The notes below the pieces were generated by a model. It was not told the DNA's origin. It did no database searches and saw only the letters and a program-made list of their open reading frames with translations. A stretch of 64,000 bases of DNA. It comes from Cellvibrionaceae bacterium. GTDB lineage: Bacteria; Pseudomonadota; Gammaproteobacteria; Pseudomonadales; Cellvibrionaceae. The translations under genes were made by a program, and so were the position numbers. Positions 13,968 through 25,026 of the stretch are shown piece by piece. The stretch spans positions 1 through 64,000 of the forward strand of contig PANW01000068.1 in NCBI GenBank assembly GCA_002707785.1, in the 5' to 3' direction. Every line of letters begins with the position of its first letter. Within the stretch, counting starts at the first letter, position 1.

Positions 13968-14016
13968 ATACTGCCGCGCTATGGCCAAGGCTCGACTTAG
14001 GTCGAATGTGGCAGCG

Positions 14017-14055
14017 AAAAAAAACGGTTACACTCTAGGGGGTAGCCGTTTTTTT
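14017..14055 (+). terminator. Intrinsic terminator after dacA
   Basis: AACGGTTA (14023-14030) pairs, with one G-T pair, with TAGCCGTT (14043-14050), followed by a run of T. The A run upstream makes it potentially bidirectional. Confidence 0.8.
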
Positions 14056-14133
14056 ATGGGCGAGAAATACTCGTTCAGCGCTGATATCACTTTCATTTGA
14101 ACATGTATTGGAATTCGCCAGGGGCAGAACTGC

Positions 14134-17100
14134 ATGGACAGCCAGCTATTGTTACTTCTTGTCTGTGTCTACAGTGGCTTGTTGTTTGCTATCGCGTGGC
14201 TGGCAGAGCGCTATGGCAATCGTCTCCATGCTCACTGGTGGCGGCCGCTGGTTTATACTCTATCCATCGGCGTCTATTGCAGCTCTTGGACCTTTCTCGG
14301 TGCGGTTGGTCAAGCCGTTGAGAATGGTTGGCAGTATCTGCCGATTTATTTAGGCCCCATTCTACTCGTCCTTTTCGGTTGGCCTTTTCTGCGTCGCCTG
14401 TTGATCATCAGTTCCCGCAATAAGGTGACCTCGATTGCTGATTTTATCGGCTCTCGCTACGGTAAAAATCAACGTTTGGCGGCGATCGTAACCCTGGTGC
14501 TGGTGGTCGGTACCTTGCCCTATATCGCGCTGCAACTGCGCGCGGTAGGTATTGCTTGGTCGACTATTCATTGGGACGACGGCGCCGGAGTCGCCTTTGA
14601 TTCTTGGTCGAGTTTAATTGCGGCTATGGCTATGGCGTGGTTTGCCATTCTATTCGGCACTCGGGTGATAGACGGCCCCGACCGGCATCGGGGCATGATC
14701 ACGGCGGTCGCGGTGGAATCGTTGGTGAAAGTGATTGCTTTTGTGGTGGTGGGCTTTTTGGCGTTTCGATTGTTGGAGACGCCAGGGTTGAATATCGCCA
14801 GCATTACCCCGAATTTCGAAACGGCACAAATTATCAGCCCATTGTTCTGGACCGAAATGTTGTTGGCGGCCATCGCGATCGTCTGTTTGCCTCGGCAATT
14901 TCATGTCATGGTGGTGGAGTATCAGCATCGCTCGGATTTGCGTTATACCCGCTGGTTACTACCACTCTATCTCGCCATCTTTGCGATTTTGGTGATCCCC
15001 TTGGCGCAAGTGGGGGCTCAGTTGTTTGGCGGTCTTGCGGTAGACCCCGATAGTTACGTGTTGACCTTACCGCGTTGGGCGGGAGAAGAGTCGACTCTGG
15101 TGATTACTTTCATTGGCTCGCTGTCGGCTGCGACGGGCATGGTGGTGGTAGCGACGATTGCCCTGTCGATTATGATTTCCAATGAATTGATCGTGCCCAT
15201 CTGGTTGCGATCGAGCTCTAGTCGAGGGCAAAGCGCTAGTGATTTGGGCACCTCTCTGCGTTTTATTCGTCGAGCCTCCATTGTTGCCGTATTGGTATTG
15301 GGCTGGGCGCTAGAGCGGATTATGAGTACCGCCGATGGTCTCGCCTCTATGGGATTGATCTCGTTTGCCGCAACCGCTCAGTTTATGCCGGCGGTACTAG
15401 GTGCGTTATATTGGTCCAAAGGGCATGCACGTGGTGTGATTGGCGGCGTGTTGGTGGGGATGGCGATTTGGTTTTACTGCCTATTACTGCCAGTACTGTT
15501 ACCGGCAGATCATTCACTGATTCTACAGGGCCCTGCGGGCATTGAGTGGTTGGCTCCTTACCAACTCTTCGGTCTAAGTGGGCTGGACCCTCTCAGCCAC
15601 GGCGTTTTCTGGAGTTTACTGTTTAATGTTGTTGTGTTTTTGGTGGTTTCGCGGCGCTCGGTATTTCGGTTGTTGGACATTCGCCAATCAGATGCCTTTA
15701 CGCGATTGCGTTGGAGTGTGCGTCGCCAAGCGTTGGATATGGAGCCTTCGGGAATTGAGGTCCAACAACTCCAAGCATTGATGGATCCATTGTTCGGCAA
15801 AGAGCGAACTCTGGACATGTGGCAAGACTTTGAGCAGCGGGTGGGGCATCGTTTACTGCCTCATGATCAAACACCACGGTTTGTGGTGGCGACCATTGAA
15901 AGTGATTTGGCAGCCATTATCGGAGCTGTTTCGGCTCATCGCGCTATGCAGTTATTGATCAGTCAGCAGCCACTGCAACTGCAGGACTTTGTCAGTTTGG
16001 TAGGCGGCAGTTCTCGGCAACTGCAGTTCAGTCAAACACTGCTGCAAACTACCTTGGAGACGATACCCCAAGGCATCAGCGTAGTGGATAAAGATTTGCA
16101 GTTGGTGGCTTGGAATCAACAATATCAAAAACTGTTTGATTATCCCAAGCGTCTACTTTACGTCGGTTGTGACATTGAAAAAATCTACCACTATAACGCT
16201 ATGCGGGGTTATCTCGGCACCAGCAATGATGGTATAGAAGCGGCGGTGGAGCGACGTCTCAATCAATTGCGTTCCGGTACCCCGCATCGGATGGAGCGGG
16301 TGCTGCCCAGTGGGGAAGTTATTGAAATCCGCGGCACCCCTTTGGCCAATGGCGGTTATGTGACGACTTACACCGACGTTAGTGATTACCACATGATGCT
16401 CGACCAGCTGGAAAATGCTAAAGAGACACTGGAGGATCGGGTTGATTCGAGAACTGCTGAATTACAGTATGTGAACGACTCGCTATCTAGAGAAAACGAA
16501 TTGCGTGCACGTACGGAACAGGAATTGAAAACTGTACACGCCAGTAAGAGCCGCTTTTTGGCCGCGGCCAGTCACGATCTCTTGCAACCTATTAATGCTG
16601 CGCGACTATTTGTTGCCTCTCTCAGTGCGAAGCTAGATGTGAGCAATGATACGCCTTTGCGCAGTGACGTTGAGTACTTGGATGACGCCTTGGCTCAGGC
16701 TGAACAATTGATTAATTCGTTGAGAGAAATCTCCCGTTTAGGTTCTGGCAAAGAGCGGCCCCAGCGAGAAAATTTTGCCATCGATAGTTTGCTGCGCCCG
16801 TTGGCCAATGAAGCTTCAGCCTTGGCGGAAAAGCAGCAAATAGAATTCGATTGGGTGCCCTCATCCGTGTGGGTCAACAGCGACCCGCATTTGTTGCGGC
16901 GAGTTGTACAGAATTTTGTCTCGAATGCTCTGCGCTACACCAAGAGCGGCAAGGTGGTATTAGGGTGTCGCCGTCACTGCGACAACTTGAGTATTGAGGT
17001 TTGGGATACCGGGCCGGGTATTGCGGAGCAGGATCGTCTGCGTATTTTTGAAGAGTTTGAACGCTTACCGGGTTCCAATACCGGCAACCAAGGTTTGGGG

Positions 17101-17643
17101 CTGGGGTTGTCGATCGCTCAGCGTATCTCCCAATTGTTAGGCCATCCTATCAGTCTGGATTCTCAGTTGGGGCGCGGATCAGTCTTTCGAATTCAGGTGA
17201 ATTTAGGCGTAGCGGAACAGGCAGCGATTGCGAAGCCGACGGTTGATTCTCGCTTGTCAGGTTTGTCGGTGTTATGCATTGATAATGAGGCGGTTATTCT
17301 CGCGGGTATGCAATCGCTGTTAGAACAGTGGGGCTGTCGGGTGGTCACCGCGTCGGACTTACGTGAAGCCCTCGCCAACTGGTCCGACGAAGTGGCACCA
17401 CAATTGGTATTGGCAGACTTCCACTTAGATGAAGAAACGGGTTTGGATGTGTTGGAGGCCTTGCGCTATCACTGGCAGCAGCCGATACCTGCGGTCGTTA
17501 TTAGTGCCGATAACAGTGATGACGTGAGGCAGCAAGTGCAAGATGCCGATTGTTTGTTTTTACCCAAACCGGTTCAGCCCACCGCACTGAGAACCTTGAT
17601 GCGCCGTGCATTGCGGCGTCAAAGAGTTCAACGGACAGGTTAA
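14134..17643 (+). CDS. SSS-transporter hybrid histidine kinase, CrbS/MxtR type
   Basis: This 1169-residue protein starts with a sodium:solute symporter-like domain of about 13 membrane helices (about 1-500). A linker follows, then a PAS domain (about 640-750), a coiled coil, HisKA with His814 in Ala-Ser-His-Asp-Leu-Leu-Gln-Pro, HATPase_c with an N-box near 924 and Gly-Leu-Gly-Leu-Gly-Leu-Ser, and a C-terminal receiver with Asp1095. This is the architecture of CrbS/MxtR, which with the LuxR-type regulator CrbR controls the acetate switch in Vibrio and Pseudomonas. The neighbouring convergent LuxR-type regulator and the Na+/carboxylate symporter fit that role. CbrA is a relative but pairs with an NtrC-type partner. 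AGGGG stands about 10 bases before the ATG. Confidence 0.88.
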   Translation: MDSQLLLLLVCVYSGLLFAIAWLAERYGNRLHAHWWRPLVYTLSIGVYCSSWTFLGAVGQAVENGWQYLPIYLGPILLVLFGWPFLRRLLIISSRNKVTSIADFIGSRYGKNQRLAAIVTLVLVVGTLPYIALQLRAVGIAWSTIHWDDGAGVAFDSWSSLIAAMAMAWFAILFGTRVIDGPDRHRGMITAVAVESLVKVIAFVVVGFLAFRLLETPGLNIASITPNFETAQIISPLFWTEMLLAAIAIVCLPRQFHVMVVEYQHRSDLRYTRWLLPLYLAIFAILVIPLAQVGAQLFGGLAVDPDSYVLTLPRWAGEESTLVITFIGSLSAATGMVVVATIALSIMISNELIVPIWLRSSSSRGQSASDLGTSLRFIRRASIVAVLVLGWALERIMSTADGLASMGLISFAATAQFMPAVLGALYWSKGHARGVIGGVLVGMAIWFYCLLLPVLLPADHSLILQGPAGIEWLAPYQLFGLSGLDPLSHGVFWSLLFNVVVFLVVSRRSVFRLLDIRQSDAFTRLRWSVRRQALDMEPSGIEVQQLQALMDPLFGKERTLDMWQDFEQRVGHRLLPHDQTPRFVVATIESDLAAIIGAVSAHRAMQLLISQQPLQLQDFVSLVGGSSRQLQFSQTLLQTTLETIPQGISVVDKDLQLVAWNQQYQKLFDYPKRLLYVGCDIEKIYHYNAMRGYLGTSNDGIEAAVERRLNQLRSGTPHRMERVLPSGEVIEIRGTPLANGGYVTTYTDVSDYHMMLDQLENAKETLEDRVDSRTAELQYVNDSLSRENELRARTEQELKTVHASKSRFLAAASHDLLQPINAARLFVASLSAKLDVSNDTPLRSDVEYLDDALAQAEQLINSLREISRLGSGKERPQRENFAIDSLLRPLANEASALAEKQQIEFDWVPSSVWVNSDPHLLRRVVQNFVSNALRYTKSGKVVLGCRRHCDNLSIEVWDTGPGIAEQDRLRIFEEFERLPGSNTGNQGLGLGLSIAQRISQLLGHPISLDSQLGRGSVFRIQVNLGVAEQAAIAKPTVDSRLSGLSVLCIDNEAVILAGMQSLLEQWGCRVVTASDLREALANWSDEVAPQLVLADFHLDEETGLDVLEALRYHWQQPIPAVVISADNSDDVRQQVQDADCLFLPKPVQPTALRTLMRRALRRQRVQRTG

Positions 17644-17711: not shown

Positions 17712-18389
17712 CTATTGGGACTTTTTAAATTCATCCAACGATTGGCTGGGGCTGACTGCGAGCTGGCCGATGGCAACGGCTGCTTGGGTTCTTGAGTGCA
17801 CACCCAGTTTGCGAAAAATCTCCGTCATGTGCGCTTTAATTGTAGCTTCAGTCACATGCAACTCGTAAGCAATCTGCTTATTGAGTAATCCTTGGCTGAC
17901 CATAGAGGCCACTTTAAACTGCTGAGGCGTTAAGCTCGCCAAGGCCTCGGCAATATTGAGTTCTGTTTCACCGGCGGCGGGTTCGTCGGTGAGTCCTTCC
18001 GGAAGCCAAGTGTTTCCTCTTAACACTGTTAGCAGTGCGTCGCTCATCGCTTCAAGTGAGGCGCTCTTGGGGAGAAAGCCACTGGCGCCATGATCCATGG
18101 CGCGGCGAATGATCTCAGGTTCTTCGTGAGCCGAGACAATCATCACGGGAATCTGTGGGTAGTGCGCGGTGAGAAAAACGAGTGAGCTAAAGCCTTCAGC
18201 GCCGGGCATATGTAAGTCGAGCAAAATGAGGTTGGCGTTAGCGTTACTGTCTACGCACTGATGCAAGCTATTAAAATCTTCGGCCTCAATGAGTTGTGGT
18301 TGGCTGAGCTCCCTTTGCAGTGTGGCACTCAGAGCTGAGCGAAACAAAGGGTGATCGTCTGCGATGATAATGCACGGGTGGGTGACCAT
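17712..18389 (-). CDS. LuxR/NarL-type response regulator, CrbR-like
   Basis: 225 residues from ATG 18389; a TTG at 18398 is less likely. The receiver domain (about 1-115) has the phospho-acceptor Asp58 in Leu-Leu-Asp-Leu-His-Met-Pro-Gly and an Asp-Asp pair near residue 11. A LuxR-type helix-turn-helix (about 153-209) has Leu-Thr-Pro-Gln-Gln then Gly-Leu-Leu-Asn-Lys-Gln-Ile-Ala and Val-Thr-Glu-Ala-Thr-Ile-Lys-Ala-His. It converges on the transporter-kinase gene with a 68-base gap and is divergent from the porin gene. It is the obvious partner of that kinase and probably activates acetate-assimilation genes. The TAGACT repeats upstream of the porin are candidate binding sites (inference). Confidence 0.88.
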   Translation of the reverse strand: MVTHPCIIIADDHPLFRSALSATLQRELSQPQLIEAEDFNSLHQCVDSNANANLILLDLHMPGAEGFSSLVFLTAHYPQIPVMIVSAHEEPEIIRRAMDHGASGFLPKSASLEAMSDALLTVLRGNTWLPEGLTDEPAAGETELNIAEALASLTPQQFKVASMVSQGLLNKQIAYELHVTEATIKAHMTEIFRKLGVHSRTQAAVAIGQLAVSPSQSLDEFKKSQ

Positions 18390-18667
18390 AGCGCTCAATC
18401 CATAATTGAAACATTGTTATTATTGTAGCTGCTGAACCTTCTAACTGACGCCTAGGTCAGCATAATTTCATTCCAGCACTTAAAGCTCTTAGCGAAACTC
18501 TTACCGATAATAGTACCGCAAGACGGTAGGAATGCGAATATTGTGGCGATGAAAACTCAATTCTAGCGGATGTTTTCAGTGGGAAGGGAGATGAAAAAAA
18601 TCACAGCCCCGCCGAAGCGGAACCGTGCAGAGAACTGACTCTGGTCCAAGGATTGAGTGAAATTGTG

Positions 18668-18730: not shown

Positions 18731-18813
18731 TATCCTGTCAAACTTTCGCTAAAACGTGTTACAAGCGATATCGCTATGCTGACAGTATCGTGCTGATCGC
18801 TATCATCTGCCAT

Positions 18814-18901
18814 TAGACTTTGGTCGAGAAGTAGATGTTCCCTCTATAGCTTCTGTCAATAGTCTATCGCACTAGACTTTAGTCGATAGTTAGACTAACG
18901 G
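18814..18901. promoter_or_regulatory. TAGACT repeat cluster upstream of the porin gene
   Basis: Two 22-base direct repeats start with TAGACTTT at 18814 and 18873; they share TAGACTTT, GTCGA and a closing TAGA. Between and after them lie AGTCTA (18861-18866), TAGACT (18873-18878) and TAGACT (18891-18896), making an AGTCTA-N6-TAGACT dyad. The last copy reads GTTAGACTAACGG and reappears with two changes upstream of the symporter genes (20278). This looks like a tandem operator. Confidence 0.5.
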
Positions 18902-18971
18902 TTAATACCTCTCTGTAGTAAAGCGGCAAATACTGGTTGTCGGAGATAACACTACAACGGAGAGGACAATC

Positions 18972-20261
18972 ATGAATTATAAAAATACCCAATCCCCTTT
19001 GGCGTTAGCGGTAGGCGCAACCCTGATGTTGTCCGCACTGCCGAGTCTGGCAGATGCCGATATGCAAAAAAGGGTGGAGATGCTTGAGCGAGAGCTGATG
19101 GCGTTGAAAACCCAGTTGCAAGAAAAAGAAGAAATTCAGCTTAAAAAGGGTGTCGAACTCAAAAAAGGCACGCGTTTCCAGTACGGCGGTTACGTTAAGT
19201 TAGACGGTATGTGGAGTAAAAACTCGGATCAGCGCCGTGCAAACAATGTTGGCGATGATTTCTTGGTGCCCTCTACTATTGCTGTCGGTGACGAATCCAA
19301 TGAAGGCGACGCGGTATTTGACAGCAATGCCAAATTCAGCCGCTTGTGGTTCAAGACTCGCACAGAAACAGACGCCGGTTTACTGACCAGTTACATCGAA
19401 ACCGATTTTAACGGTTCTAACGATGAGCGCTTAACCAACCAGTCGGTGAGTGGTTTGCGTCATGCATTCGTCAATTGGGACTATTCAGAATCTGACTCGC
19501 TGTTACTCGGGCAGACCTGGAGTACGTTTTTTAACGTCGGCGCCTTACCTGAAACTCTAGATTTTGTTGGTCCCACCTCGGGTACGGTGTTTGTGCGTCA
19601 GGCACAGGCTCGCTGGACTCACAAAATGGGCGATGGCACGTCCTTTATGCTCGCGGCGGAGAACCCATCGGTGAGTATGTATGACGCTGGCGGCGGCTTT
19701 GAGGCCAACGATATCGATGAAAGTTCAATGCCTGATTTAATCGCTCGCTACAATGGTAAGGCGGGTAATTTCAGCTATAGCCTCGCAGCAATGGGGCGTG
19801 AAATCAGTTATGACACTGGCTCCCAATCTGATGATGAGATGGGTTTTGGTGTCAGCTTGTCGGGCAAGTGGGTGTTTGAAAACGGCGATGATCTGAAATT
19901 TATGGTCAACCACGGCAACCTGGGCCGCTATGTGGGCTTAAACGCGTTTCGGGATGCTGCGGTTGAAATCGATGGCGACATCGACTTGATCGACATGACC
20001 GGTGGTTTCATTGCCTATCGCCATCACTGGAACGAAAAGTTCCGCAGTACCTTTAGCTATGCCATGTCTAGCGCCGATAACTCCGATGACATTCTCAGTG
20101 ATGTTACGGAAACCATCTCCAACGCCAATATCAATTTGATGTATTCCCCCACCAAAAAGCTCACTCTCGGTGCAGAATTTATCTACGCAGAGCGCGAGGT
20201 TGAAAGTGGCTTGGACGGCGATTTGGAGCGCTTACAGTTTATGGGTAAGTGGGCATTCTAA
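18972..20261 (+). CDS. DcaP-type outer-membrane porin
   Basis: The 429-residue protein has a signal peptide (about 1-27, ending Ser-Leu-Ala) and then a short coiled coil (about 30-60) rich in Glu, Leu and Lys. A beta-barrel begins Gly-Gly-Tyr-Val-Lys-Leu-Asp-Gly. The coiled coil followed by this barrel start is typical of DcaP-family trimeric porins, which take up negatively charged organic acids. Asp-rich loops and a terminal aromatic (Lys-Trp-Ala-Phe) fit an outer-membrane barrel. It precedes the symporter pair by about 100 bases and shares an operator-like motif with it, so it probably supplies carboxylates to the periplasm. Confidence 0.85.
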   Translation: MNYKNTQSPLALAVGATLMLSALPSLADADMQKRVEMLERELMALKTQLQEKEEIQLKKGVELKKGTRFQYGGYVKLDGMWSKNSDQRRANNVGDDFLVPSTIAVGDESNEGDAVFDSNAKFSRLWFKTRTETDAGLLTSYIETDFNGSNDERLTNQSVSGLRHAFVNWDYSESDSLLLGQTWSTFFNVGALPETLDFVGPTSGTVFVRQAQARWTHKMGDGTSFMLAAENPSVSMYDAGGGFEANDIDESSMPDLIARYNGKAGNFSYSLAAMGREISYDTGSQSDDEMGFGVSLSGKWVFENGDDLKFMVNHGNLGRYVGLNAFRDAAVEIDGDIDLIDMTGGFIAYRHHWNEKFRSTFSYAMSSADNSDDILSDVTETISNANINLMYSPTKKLTLGAEFIYAEREVESGLDGDLERLQFMGKWAF

Positions 20262-20277
20262 CCTTTTATCAGTGGCA

Positions 20278-20312
20278 GTTAGACCAACGTCCAATAGTGA
20301 AGTGGGTCTAAC
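20278..20312. promoter_or_regulatory. GTTAGACC inverted repeat before symporter genes
   Basis: GTTAGACC (20278-20285) and GGTCTAAC (20305-20312) are perfect inverted repeats 19 bases apart. GTTAGACCAACGT matches GTTAGACTAACGG upstream of the porin in 11 of 13 positions. It is likely a regulator-binding dyad; as RNA it could also form a stem between porin and symporter. Confidence 0.5.
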
Positions 20313-20359
20313 CGCCGTATAAATAAGGGTGACAACAAAGAGTTTGGAGGAGAACAATC

Positions 20360-20626
20360 ATGGCGTTTCAATCTGAAAGTGATGCGAAAGCCTATTGGAA
20401 AGAAAACCTCGGTTTGATGGTTAAGCTGATGGTGGTGTGGTTTGTGGTGTCGTTTGGCTGCGGGATACTGTTTGTCGATGCGCTCAATACTATTCAGTTA
20501 GGTGGTTACAAGTTGGGCTTTTGGTTTGCTCAGCAGGGGTCCATTTATGTCTTCGTCGTACTGACTTTTTATTACGCGAAGAAAATGGGCGATTTGGACC
20601 GTAAATACGGCGTCGACGACGAATAA
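20360..20626 (+). CDS. Na+/solute symporter small subunit, DUF4212
   Basis: The 88-residue membrane protein has two helices (about 15-38 and 50-72) and a charged C-terminal tail (Lys-Lys-Met-Gly-Asp-Leu-Asp-Arg-Lys-Tyr-Gly). The opening Tyr-Trp-Lys-Glu-Asn-Leu is typical of DUF4212, the small partner of VC_2705-type sodium:solute symporters. A strong ribosome site (GGAGGAGAA) precedes the ATG. It ends 14 bases before the large subunit gene, so the two form one operon. Confidence 0.9.
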   Translation: MAFQSESDAKAYWKENLGLMVKLMVVWFVVSFGCGILFVDALNTIQLGGYKLGFWFAQQGSIYVFVVLTFYYAKKMGDLDRKYGVDDE

Positions 20627-20640
20627 ACGGGAGCATAATC

Positions 20641-22371
20641 ATGGATCTCAAAACGATGACCTACATTGTTGTAGGTTTAACCTTTGCACTTTATCTGGGG
20701 ATCGCCTTCTGGGCGCGCGCCGGATCAACCAAAGAATTTTACGTGGCCGGTGGTGGTGTTCACCCAGTTGCCAATGGTATGGCAACCGCCGCTGACTGGA
20801 TGTCTGCTGCATCGTTCATTTCCATGGCCGGTCTGATTGCCTTTATGGGATACGGTGGTTCGGTATTTTTGATGGGCTGGACGGGCGGTTATGTGATTCT
20901 AGCCATGTTGCTTGCGCCATACTTGCGTAAGTACGGTAAATTCACTGTGCCGGAGTTCATTGGTGATCGATTCTATTCCCGTGGAGCTCGTGTGGTCGCG
21001 GTCATCTGTCTGATCATCTGTTCGGTTACCTATGTCATCGGTCAAATGAAAGGTGTGGGTGTTGCTTTTTCTCGCTTCCTAGAAGTTAGCTACGAGCTAG
21101 GTTTGCTTGTGGGTATGGTGATCGTGTTCTTCTACGCGGTACTCGGTGGTATGAAAGGGATTACCTATACACAGATCGCGCAATACTGCGTGTTGATTTT
21201 TGCCTACACCATCCCGGCAATGTTTATATCACTGAACCTGACTGGCAACCCCATTCCACAGCTGGGCTTGGGCAGTACCATGGTGGGAAGTGAAACCTAT
21301 CTATTGGATCGACTCGATCAGGTGGTCACAGAGCTCGGCTTTGCTGAGTACACCACCAGTGTGCGGCTAAACATGACCAATATGTTTGCCTACACCTTGT
21401 CGTTGATGATTGGTACGGCGGGTTTGCCTCACGTTATTATTCGCTTCTTCACTGTACCTAAGGTGAAAGATGCGCGTACCTCAGCGGGTTGGGCACTTAT
21501 CTTCATCGCGATCTTGTATACCACTGCTCCTGCAGTTGCTGGTATGGCTCGTCTCAATCTCATGAACACGATTGAGCCCACACAAGGTGAGCACTTAGTC
21601 TATGAAGAGCGTCCGCAATGGTTCAAGAACTGGGAAAAAACCGGTCTTCTGAAGTTTGAAGATAAGAACGGTGATGGTCGTATTCAGTACACCTCTAGCA
21701 AAGATACCAACGAAATGGTGAAAGTGGATAATGACATCATGGTATTGGCGAACCCAGAAATTGCTCAGCTACCGAATTGGGTGATTGCATTGGTGGCCGC
21801 TGGTGGCTTAGCGGCGGCACTGTCTACAGCAGCGGGTTTACTGTTGGCGATCTCTTCGGCGATCTCTCACGATCTGTTGAAAGGGGTGATCGCACCCAAC
21901 ATTAGCGAGAAACAGGAGTTGCGAGCGTCTAGGATTGCCATGGCAGTGGCTATCGCGGGTGCGGGTTATCTTGGCTACAACCCGCCCGATTTTGCGGCTG
22001 GTACGGTGGCTCTCGCCTTTGGTTTGGCCGCATCGTCGATCTTCCCGGCCTTAATGATGGGTATCTTCAGCAAGCGTGTGAATAAAGAAGGTGCTGTGGC
22101 AGGTATGATCGCCGGTATTACGGTAACTCTGCTCTATGTCTTCCAGCACAAAGGCATCATGTTTATTGCCGATACCGCGTTCCTAGGTGATATGTCGGCC
22201 AATTGGTTTATGGGTATCGAGCCCAATGCCTTTGGTGCGGTGGGTGCGGTGGTTAACTTTGCGGTTGCTTTTGCAGTCTCTCGTGTAACGGCTGAACCTC
22301 CACAAGAAGTACAAGACTTGGTTGAGCATATTCGAGTGCCAACCGGTGTAGAAGGTGCGCAAGATCACTAA
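20641..22371 (+). CDS. Na+/carboxylate (acetate-type) symporter, VC_2705 subfamily
   Basis: The 576-residue SSS-family permease has about 13 helices and conserved segments such as Ala-Ala-Asp-Trp-Met-Ser-Ala-Ala-Ser-Phe (50-59). It most likely imports acetate or a related short-chain acid with Na+. A hydrophilic insertion at about 305-365 contains Asp341-Lys-Asn-Gly-Asp-Gly-Arg-Ile-Gln, an EF-hand-like loop that may bind Ca2+. The gene follows its DUF4212 small subunit and is closed by an intrinsic terminator. The upstream kinase/regulator pair suggests CrbSR-type control. It is called ActP-like, but the substrate is not proven by sequence. Confidence 0.88.
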   Translation: MDLKTMTYIVVGLTFALYLGIAFWARAGSTKEFYVAGGGVHPVANGMATAADWMSAASFISMAGLIAFMGYGGSVFLMGWTGGYVILAMLLAPYLRKYGKFTVPEFIGDRFYSRGARVVAVICLIICSVTYVIGQMKGVGVAFSRFLEVSYELGLLVGMVIVFFYAVLGGMKGITYTQIAQYCVLIFAYTIPAMFISLNLTGNPIPQLGLGSTMVGSETYLLDRLDQVVTELGFAEYTTSVRLNMTNMFAYTLSLMIGTAGLPHVIIRFFTVPKVKDARTSAGWALIFIAILYTTAPAVAGMARLNLMNTIEPTQGEHLVYEERPQWFKNWEKTGLLKFEDKNGDGRIQYTSSKDTNEMVKVDNDIMVLANPEIAQLPNWVIALVAAGGLAAALSTAAGLLLAISSAISHDLLKGVIAPNISEKQELRASRIAMAVAIAGAGYLGYNPPDFAAGTVALAFGLAASSIFPALMMGIFSKRVNKEGAVAGMIAGITVTLLYVFQHKGIMFIADTAFLGDMSANWFMGIEPNAFGAVGAVVNFAVAFAVSRVTAEPPQEVQDLVEHIRVPTGVEGAQDH

Positions 22372-23070: not shown

Positions 23071-23112
23071 TACTCTTTGTTTTTTTGCGCTAGCGCTGCA
23101 GGAAAGATTCCT

Positions 23113-25026
23113 ATGAACGAGTATACAAACCCCGATTCCAACAGCTCCGTGGTGGCTACGGGGCTTAGTCCAGAACTGAGCGCGGTGAAGGACTTCCTCG
23201 CCGAGTGTATTCCTTTTGATACCCTATCCGATGATCAGCTCAATCAACTCGCGCCGGCAATTGAAGTTTGTTACTACCGACAGGGTCATATTTTTCGCAG
23301 TGAAGATGATGCGGGTGGCCTGCGTATCATACGCAGTGGTGCGGCGGAATTGCGTGTTGAAAATGATCGCTTGATCGATCGTTTTGGAGAAACCGTCAGC
23401 TTTAACTTGCTTGGGCTCAGTCAGGAGCAGCCCGGTATTCGCGCCACACTCATTGAAGACTCGTTGATCTATTACTTGGCTGAAGTCGACTATCAGCGCT
23501 TGCGTAAACAGTATCGTGACTTTGATCGCTTCTTTCATTCCCAACGCAGCCGTCGGGTCAGGCGCGCGGCGCGCCATGAAACAACACCCTCGGAAATGAT
23601 GCGGCGCGTGAAAGATCTGATGAGCTCCAATGTTCTGAGTGTGGCGCCCGTCGACTCCATCCAAACGACTGCGCAGTTGATGTCAGAGCACCGAATCTCG
23701 TCGGTGCTGGTGATGCAGGATGAGCAACTCAAAGGAATTGTCACAGATAGAGATATTCGTTCGCGGGCGGTGGCTCTGGGGCTGGACGTTGCGGAACCTA
23801 TTGAACGCATTATGACCGTATCGCCAGACACTATTTTTGACGACGAAACCCTGTTTGATGCCACCTTATTCATGACGCAAAAGGGTTATCACCATATACC
23901 GGTTGTCTCTGCACATGGCGAGGATAGCCGTGCTCCTAAATCGGTGGTGGGCATTGTGACCTCATCCGATCTTATGTTGGCGCGCCGAGATGATCCAGTG
24001 TATTTGGTCCAGCACGTCAACCGCCAACAAACCGTCAAAGGGCTGAAAGACATTACTGCGCTGCTACCGGATTTGTTGGCACAGTGGGTTAACGCCGGTA
24101 TCAAATCAACTCAGGTTGGGCATGTCCTCACTGCCATCAGTGATGCGGTGACTATTCGATTAATTGCCATGGCAGAGCAAGAGTTGGGACCGGCGCCGGC
24201 CCCTTTTTGTTGGTTGGGATTCGGGTCACAAGGGCGTGAGGAGCAATTGCTTGGCGGCGATCAAGACAACGCGCTATTGATTTCCGATGACGTTAAAGAC
24301 AGTGATTTAGCTTGGTTCGAAAAAATGGCTCATCGCGTGTGTGACGGGCTCAATGAATGTGGTTACGTCTATTGCCCGGGTGAAGTGATGGCGACCACCA
24401 AAGAGTGGCGGCAACCGTTGCAGGGCTGGAAACAGACCGTGGATCGCTGGACTCGAAGCCCCACGTCCGACGCTGTTATGCGAGTGAGTATTTTCTTTGA
24501 TGTGCGGGCGGTACATGGCGATGCCAGTCTGGCGAAGCAATTGCAAGCTCATATGCTCAAGCGCACTAAGGGCAATAGTATTTTTCTGGCCGCATTGGCA
24601 GAAAATGTGCTCGATGCTCCGCCGCCGCTGGGGATTTTTCGTCGCTTTGTGGTGGACCACAATGGCGAGCACCGAGACGAATTGAATCTAAAAAAACGCG
24701 CGGTGATACCCATCGTTGATTTGGTGCGAATTCATTCACTGGCGCATGGTATTCAAGCGGTCAATACGGTCCGCCGACTGCATGCTTTAGCGGATGCTAA
24801 GGTCATGTCCATTGGTGACAGTCGCAATCTGCAAGATGCACTGCAAGTGATTATGCAAACTCGCGTCGAGGCTCAGGTTCAACAATTGATGAATGCCGAA
24901 AAACCTACCAACTATCTCAACCCTGATGAGCTGCCTAAATTGGTGCGAAAGCAGTTGCGCGATGCCTTTAGCGTCGTTAAAGATGCGCAGCAATCTATCC
25001 GACTGAATTACCGCCCAGGCTTGTAG
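23113..25026 (+). CDS. cNMP-binding/CBS/DUF294 nucleotidyltransferase-like protein
   Basis: 637 residues from ATG 23113, preceded by AGGAA; a TTG at 23077 has no ribosome site. Domains in order are a cyclic-nucleotide-binding-like fold (about 32-145), two CBS motifs (about 168-222 and 233-290) and a DUF294 nucleotidyltransferase with Gly-Ser-Gln-Gly-Arg-Glu-Glu (371-377) and Asp383/Asp385, then its substrate-binding domain. The architecture resembles GlnD-like signal proteins whose substrate is unknown. Such a gene is a standing neighbour of VC_2705-type symporters and of the following exonuclease, so it may sense energy state and regulate uptake; that link is inference. Confidence 0.85.
   Translation: MNEYTNPDSNSSVVATGLSPELSAVKDFLAECIPFDTLSDDQLNQLAPAIEVCYYRQGHIFRSEDDAGGLRIIRSGAAELRVENDRLIDRFGETVSFNLLGLSQEQPGIRATLIEDSLIYYLAEVDYQRLRKQYRDFDRFFHSQRSRRVRRAARHETTPSEMMRRVKDLMSSNVLSVAPVDSIQTTAQLMSEHRISSVLVMQDEQLKGIVTDRDIRSRAVALGLDVAEPIERIMTVSPDTIFDDETLFDATLFMTQKGYHHIPVVSAHGEDSRAPKSVVGIVTSSDLMLARRDDPVYLVQHVNRQQTVKGLKDITALLPDLLAQWVNAGIKSTQVGHVLTAISDAVTIRLIAMAEQELGPAPAPFCWLGFGSQGREEQLLGGDQDNALLISDDVKDSDLAWFEKMAHRVCDGLNECGYVYCPGEVMATTKEWRQPLQGWKQTVDRWTRSPTSDAVMRVSIFFDVRAVHGDASLAKQLQAHMLKRTKGNSIFLAALAENVLDAPPPLGIFRRFVVDHNGEHRDELNLKKRAVIPIVDLVRIHSLAHGIQAVNTVRRLHALADAKVMSIGDSRNLQDALQVIMQTRVEAQVQQLMNAEKPTNYLNPDELPKLVRKQLRDAFSVVKDAQQSIRLNYRPGL

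Follow-up and report, generated by a model that had tools for sequence, protein, structure and literature searches.

Repeats upstream of a DcaP-like porin and a sodium/solute symporter in a Pseudomaricurvus genome as probable operators of a CrbR/ErdR-type response regulator

The response regulator CrbR activates acetate genes through ACTU, a 17-bp imperfect inverted repeat with a GAC/TAC-N4-GTC core that is required for this activation and lies immediately 5' of a sigma-70 promoter, at -52 to -36; acs is a published target (Sepulveda and Lupas, PMC5715377; this and the papers below are cited from excerpts). For ErdR of Pseudomonas putida KT2440, promoter binding has been demonstrated by gel shift (PMC8402216). 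In Sinorhizobium fredii, RpuS/R, a related SLC5/STAC two-component system, controls a monocarboxylate symporter, and its regulator needs an imperfect direct repeat rather than an inverted repeat (PMC9100948). Here, we describe a 64,000-nucleotide stretch of DNA (the window; GCA_002707785.1, PANW01000068.1, forward strand) from a draft genome of 4.92 Mb that we take to be Pseudomaricurvus (G000, in which the window lies on contig C67), where matches to ACTU precede genes for a CrbS-like kinase, a DcaP-like porin and a sodium/solute symporter.

The cluster consists, in this order, of a crbS-like hybrid histidine kinase gene (14134-17643, + strand), a CrbR/ErdR-like response regulator gene (17712-18398, - strand), a DcaP-like outer-membrane porin gene (18972-20261, + strand; Pfam DcaP PF19577, E=6e-24), a gene for the small symporter subunit (20360-20626, + strand; DUF4212 / TIGR03647) and a VC_2705-family sodium/solute symporter gene (20641-22371, + strand; TIGR03648, 859 bits), followed by further open reading frames. 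The initial annotation had pointed to TAGACT words at 18814, 18873 and 18891, to GTTAGACTAACGG at 18889-18901 and to GTTAGACCAACGT at 20278-20290, and had proposed that they are binding sites of the regulator encoded divergently from the porin. The words and the divergent gene are where that annotation placed them, and we favor its proposal: a response regulator of the CrbR/ErdR type would act through the repeats before the porin and the symporter, which would be its operators, a reading to which we assign a probability of about 0.86. Its computed basis is the identity of the motif, the conservation of the sites, their spacing at several promoters and their linkage to crbR.

We built one scoring matrix from eight sequences in Table 4 of PMC5715377 (four validated and four predicted) and a second from the four validated sites only. 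With the eight-site matrix, the top three of approximately 128,000 positions in the window are 13991 (+), 20279 (+) and 18812 (-), all within this cluster, and each outscores all of 2 million random positions. With the four-site matrix, 13991 (+) and 20279 (+) still lead (0.06 matches expected for each), and 18812 (-) has an expectation of 1.2. The site 5' of the crbS-like gene, CTCGACTTAGGTCGAAT (13991-14007, + strand), is the top match by the eight-site and the second by the four-site matrix; it was absent from the initial annotation. The site of the symporter operon, TTAGACCAACGTCCAAT (20279-20295, + strand), scores 16.9 bits (four-site) and 18.8 bits (eight-site), and a by-eye comparison with the PFLU5625 site finds 14 of 17 letters in common. 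Each TAGAC word makes up one half of the published 17-bp motif. The strict motif GACYWWNGTCNAAT occurs 34 times in six Pseudomaricurvus genomes (approximately 33 Mb), compared with 24 occurrences of a reversed control pattern, and a comparison of coordinates places 15 of the 34 in the three intergenic regions of this cluster. A 20.3-bit match in a ribosomal-protein region was judged to be chance. Elsewhere in G000, near position 1500 of L007 (contig C75), arms TTAGACC/GGTCTAA surround AA in a 15.6-bit site that lies between two genes resembling gap and nqrA by eye, approximately 390 bp from the nqrA-like start.

Five other Pseudomaricurvus genomes (G001 to G005) have a syntenic crbS/crbR/porin/symporter cluster, and sites precede crbS, the porin and the symporter in all six, some of them weak by matrix: 11.1 bits at the symporter and 10.5 bits at the porin of G001, and 9.7 bits near the porin of G003, which has another site of 17.5 bits at -461. 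At the symporter, the letters TAGAC.A..GTCCAAT.G are invariant in all six genus members. The crbS site reaches at least 13.8 bits at the same place in every one of them.

We next compared loci beyond the genus. A profile search with an alignment of four porins yielded 349 related stretches, of which we used the best 80; many are close relatives (Microbulbifer, Zhongshania). A porin was called crbR-linked if a crbR match lay within 7 kb, and a site was counted if it reached at least 13 bits within approximately 400 bp of the porin start. Such sites precede 55 of 58 crbR-linked porins and none of the 10 assessable unlinked ones (highest score, 12.6 bits), a difference with a Fisher p of 1e-9 that reflects fewer independent events than loci, since many of the loci are close relatives. 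Unlinked porins were assessable when at least 3 kb of upstream sequence was present; 7 of the 9 with less reach 13 bits, and 3 more were too short to score. The 13-bit threshold is reached by 1.4% of letter shuffles and by 5.5% of 1,600 random 440-bp windows from the same loci, which include real promoters. The lineages represented are, as we take them to be from record titles and general taxonomy, mostly Gammaproteobacteria with a few Alphaproteobacteria.

The position of the sites relative to predicted promoters was also examined. Among 36 distinct symporter promoters with sites of at least 11 bits, 18 have TAnnnT exactly 22 bp after the 17-mer, and at most 2 have it at any other offset from 8 to 44. 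In the window, the predicted -10 box of the symporter operon, TATAAA (20318-20323, + strand), begins 22 bp after the ACTU site; the hexamer at this distance is TACAAA in G001, TAAAAC in G003 and G004, and GACACT in G005, and no such box follows the best site in G002. The predicted crbS -10 box, TACACT (14029-14034, + strand), begins 21 bp after its site in the window, and TACACT or TAGACT stands 22 bp after the site in the five other genus members. In the wider set, 6 of 45 crbS rows (L158, L172, L176, L184, L192, L207) were faulty and were excluded; 18 of the remaining 39 have sites of at least 13 bits. Table 4 of PMC5715377 lists a weak crbS site too. These distances of 21 to 22 bp differ by no more than 1 bp from what was published for ACTU at -52 to -36, which argues for class II activation.

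Upstream of crbS, an inverted repeat that includes A and T tracts (14017-14056) resembles a terminator, and its stem contains the predicted -10 box. Folding z scores for this repeat are -3.9 to -8.2 in the window, G004 and G002, -2.2 in G001, -0.8 in G005 and +0.5 in G003. Is the crbS promoter embedded in the terminator of its neighbor?

The region between crbR and the porin contains three sites. The distal one, CTCGACCAAAGTCTAAT (18812-18828), is near-palindromic and scores best, at 18.7 bits, on the - strand; its counterpart aligns in four of the six genus members, the two others being G003 and G001. The medial site, CTAGACTTTAGTCGATA (18872-18888, + strand), scores 12.6 bits, and the proximal one, TTAGACTAACGGTTAAT (18890-18906, + strand), scores 11.4 bits; neither is significant alone (2.7 and 5.1 expected); their support is conservation. 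GACTTT.GTC in the medial site and TAGAC.AA.GG..AAT in the proximal one are invariant in all six genus members. The proximal site, which contains TTAGACTAACGG, is followed at 22 bp by the predicted porin -10 box, AATACT (18929-18934, + strand); this hexamer is AATACT in four of the six genus members and GATACT in one, and is absent in G002. Of the proposal that porin and symporter share one motif, the common ACTU operator is supported, but GTTAGACTAACGG belongs to a porin-specific variant and is not the same site.

This variant, GACYWWNGSYNAAT (GACYWWNG[GC]YNAAT), nearly always has GGY where the canonical site has GTC (GAC-YWWN-GGY), and it is not among the 17-mers of Table 4 in PMC5715377. Of 78 named porin promoters, 34 carry it on the coding strand and none on the opposite strand; among block-shuffled promoters, 0.07% contain it. 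Its carriers are 30 of the 58 promoters with a crbR match and 4 of the 20 without, all four from the short-contig class. Over the scanned loci the pattern has 49 occurrences in 2.4 Mb of strand, with 39 distinct ones in porin upstreams. Across 37 distinct variant sites, a weighted -10 score peaks at 22 bp (mean 3.95; the next is 2.52, at 25), and strong -10 matches are most frequent there (16, with 9 at 24 bp next). We infer that the proximal variant is the promoter-proximal CrbR site of the porin. The syntenic porins of G005, G004 and G003 (L066, L068 and L069) share just 31-33% identity with the porin of the window, and the tandem sites are kept; it is possible that the porin gene was replaced under a conserved promoter in these genomes.

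The same intergenic region invites a different explanation, namely that the sites upstream of the porin allow crbR to regulate itself, or are remnants of a neighboring acs gene that has since been lost, and that another factor drives the porin. Indeed, the strongest intergenic site scores best on the strand facing crbR. Furthermore, 45 of the 80 loci have an acs gene that lies less than 700 bp from the porin and is transcribed away from it, and crbR is next on the acs strand in 42 of these, so the distal site could once have been an acs site. Against this explanation stands the strand bias of the proximal variant, which favors the porin coding strand exclusively. In addition, none of 28 sites located 5' of crbR has TAnnnT at 22 bp (the maximum among the offsets listed is 4, at 18 bp), and we rejected autoregulation of crbR by the distal site on this count. 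Overall, we consider this explanation improbable. Because acs is a published CrbR target, the arrangement seen most often in this set is a control region common to acs and the porin, and that of Pseudomaricurvus looks derived. A broader idea is, in our view, slightly better than an even bet: CrbR may run an ancient uptake module that has the DcaP-like porin as a core target, porin and acs having originally been transcribed divergently from one promoter region, and the porin may carry an asymmetric operator class, GAC-YWWN-GGY-NAAT-TAC, with its altered half facing the -10 box, for strand-polarized activation differing in strength or timing from that at canonical ACTU sites. Our confidence in this idea is held down by the same shortfalls in spacing that temper the operator assignment, which are given below.

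The best NCBIfam model for the regulator is ErdR, with 247.6 bits against a cut-off of 390 (NF041830, an 'exception' model); since it misses this cut-off, we call it CrbR-like and not ErdR proper. Pfam detects REC and GerE/LuxR helix-turn-helix domains. Its best match in Pseudomonas borbori (L210, G076) is 56% identical and itself passes NF041830 with 446 bits, and the next P. borbori paralogue is 40% identical and scores 186 bits, in what was a one-way comparison. The kinase has PAS, HisKA, HATPase_c and REC domains by Pfam and a long N-terminal part; in this part Pfam finds no SLC5 match, and an hhalign alignment to SSF (53%, E=1.4e-4) only suggests an SLC5 nature. One might ask whether these sites are used not by the CrbR-like neighbor but by a LuxR/NarL-type paralogue that recognizes a similar GAC-N4-GTC sequence. 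LuxR-type regulators have related palindromes, and a second CrbR-like protein is present in several relatives. However, with 47 of 69 candidates scored, the genome of the window has a single match to CrbR at E<=1e-40, and ACTU tracks linkage to crbR. We give a paralogous regulator as small a chance as the autoregulation or relic explanation.

At the symporter, the initial annotation had described the motif as lying in an inverted repeat. Arms at 20274-20291 and 20299-20316 are indeed present and are 83% complementary, but the second arm is not conserved in the genus. We rejected this repeat as the symmetry of the operator: in addition to its unconserved second arm, a pattern of the spaced inverted repeat has 0 matches in the genome of the window. 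The partner half of GTTAGACC is instead the internal GTCCAAT within the 17-mer, not the arm at approximately 20304-20312. It could be argued that the 20274-20316 repeat is an RNA hairpin located where the porin transcript ends and not an operator, as the predicted fold of its RNA is more stable than that of any of 200 shuffled sequences (-23.5 kcal/mol, z -3.8) and its arms are complementary. This seems very unlikely to us, given that the 17-mer is conserved within the genus while the second arm is not, and that a terminator scan lists no site there. A hairpin specific to the window may overlap a conserved operator, in which case both would be true at once. Hairpins overlap symporter promoters not only at 20274-20316 but also in L160, L175-L178, L180 and L195, several of which are close relatives. 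Among the 18 promoters with TAnnnT, the symporter follows the porin in 8, and the folding z scores of these run from -0.7 to -5.3; among the other 10 only L189 falls below -0.5.

Finally, chance similarity of short words can be dismissed: the annotated word, taken as a 12-mer with up to 2 mismatches, shows no enrichment across the window (7 found, 5.35 expected), and loose genome-wide matching with up to 1 mismatch gives 99 matches compared with 194 for a reversed pattern, but conservation across species already contradicts chance, as do the linkage and spacing statistics.

The initial annotation had suggested looking for the motif before acs and other acetate genes. At a prpE-like gene, whose best NCBIfam model is propionate-CoA ligase (765 bits, under a cut-off of 955), a site of at least 13.5 bits lies upstream in all six Pseudomaricurvus genomes (L232-L237); the -10 box follows at 22 bp in all but one of them, where the distance is 21 bp. 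Propionate activation thus probably belongs to the same regulon. The acs gene of the genome itself (contig C49) has just CACTACTAAAGTAGGGT, at 9.7 bits. By eye, a TAC/GAC-N4-GTA/GTG core precedes TATGAT or TAAGAT by 22-23 bp upstream of acs in all six genus genomes (L216-L221). By matrix this core reaches 7 bits in three of the six, and G002 carries an additional 19-bit canonical site. Upstream of adk (L238-L243), sites of 12.4-14.8 bits occur at -204 to -256, far from the start, in five of the six genomes, with none in G004. Acetyl-CoA synthetase makes AMP, which renders adk a plausible target. Fumarase was considered and is unsupported (13.2 bits in G000, 12.7 and 12.5 bits in two others, and nothing at 9.5 bits in three of six). 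Taken together, crbS, the porin, the symporter and the prpE-like gene are likely CrbR targets, acs is a probable one and adk a possible one.

Several observations weigh against the operator assignment. The 18 symporter promoters with TAnnnT at 22 bp include no Pseudomaricurvus promoter, although six were available. Where the symporter follows the porin, just 21 of 50 loci have a symporter site of 13 bits, and none of 12 Microbulbifer symporter loci reaches 11 bits. Three crbR-linked porins (L137, L190 and L211) fall below 13 bits, and the porins of L064 and L067 have nothing at 9.5 bits within the 350 bp scanned. Sites facing acs lack a peak at 22 bp (4 of 117 at 22 and 7 of 117 at 21), and canonical porin sites have a -10 box at 22 bp in 1 of 140 cases, with 13 and 8 of 140 at 24 and 25 bp. 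A looser count over the variant sites (A at position 2, T at position 6) gives 11 at 22 bp compared with 15 at 17 and 14 at 25, and in the absence of a single peak the spacing at the variant is less sharp than at the symporter. The weak site at acs, the regulator's score under the strict ErdR cut-off and the kinship of the loci behind the linkage count belong here as well. It is the placement of the Pseudomaricurvus symporters outside the 18 cases, the missing peak at acs and the lack of a single peak at the porin variant that temper our probability for CrbR/ErdR-type operators.

If these sites are CrbR operators, the system might work as follows. A short-chain fatty acid signal would lead the CrbS-like kinase to phosphorylate the CrbR-like regulator, which would bind ACTU (GAC-N4-GTC) just 5' of weak promoters, with approximately 22 bp between site and -10 box in the case of the symporter, crbS and the prpE-like gene. 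Acting as a class II activator, the regulator would recruit RNA polymerase and thereby turn on the gene for its own kinase, that for the DcaP-like porin (through the tandem medial and asymmetric proximal sites, plus the distal site) and the DUF4212/SSF symporter operon. The outcome would be an uptake route across the outer and inner membranes, matched to acetyl- and propionyl-CoA synthetases encoded elsewhere in the genome. Binding, phosphorylation and activation are inferred here, as is the role of acetate or propionate as signal and substrate.

Three further genes lie 3' of the symporter gene, encoding, in order, a 166-residue protein without a family, a CBS/DUF294 protein (23077-25026, + strand; assigned by Pfam and syntenic within the genus) and a DnaQ-like exonuclease. 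The CBS/DUF294 protein is of the same CBS-domain class as one in the published regulon, a likeness at the level of class only. A CBS/DUF294 gene follows the symporter here as in the P. putida ErdR system (PMC8402216), where binding was demonstrated by gel shift whereas our evidence is from sequence, and where the excerpts name no porin among the tested promoters.

Compared with the system of PMC5715377, this locus has the same 17-bp imperfect inverted repeat immediately 5' of promoters and before acetate genes, but here the promoters are those of the DcaP-like porin, the DUF4212/SSF symporter, crbS and the prpE-like gene, and the porin has tandem sites. We found no porin described as a CrbR/ErdR target in the literature searched, subscription papers being outside its scope: the excerpts of PMC5715377 contain a porin in the reference list only, those of PMC5436829 contain none, and the porin in PMC12997753 belongs to the alcohol-oxidation ped cluster. 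The motif and the regulator are already known, and the porin's membership and the operator variant appear to be new. The finding would tie outer-membrane permeability to the acetate switch. Linkage to crbR, the rule of 22 bp seen at several promoters, and the porin variant lead to a simple, testable model of how one LuxR-type activator reads two operator types. Should CrbR control the porin throughout these lineages, the capture of acetate and propionate would be coordinated from the outer membrane to the CoA ester.
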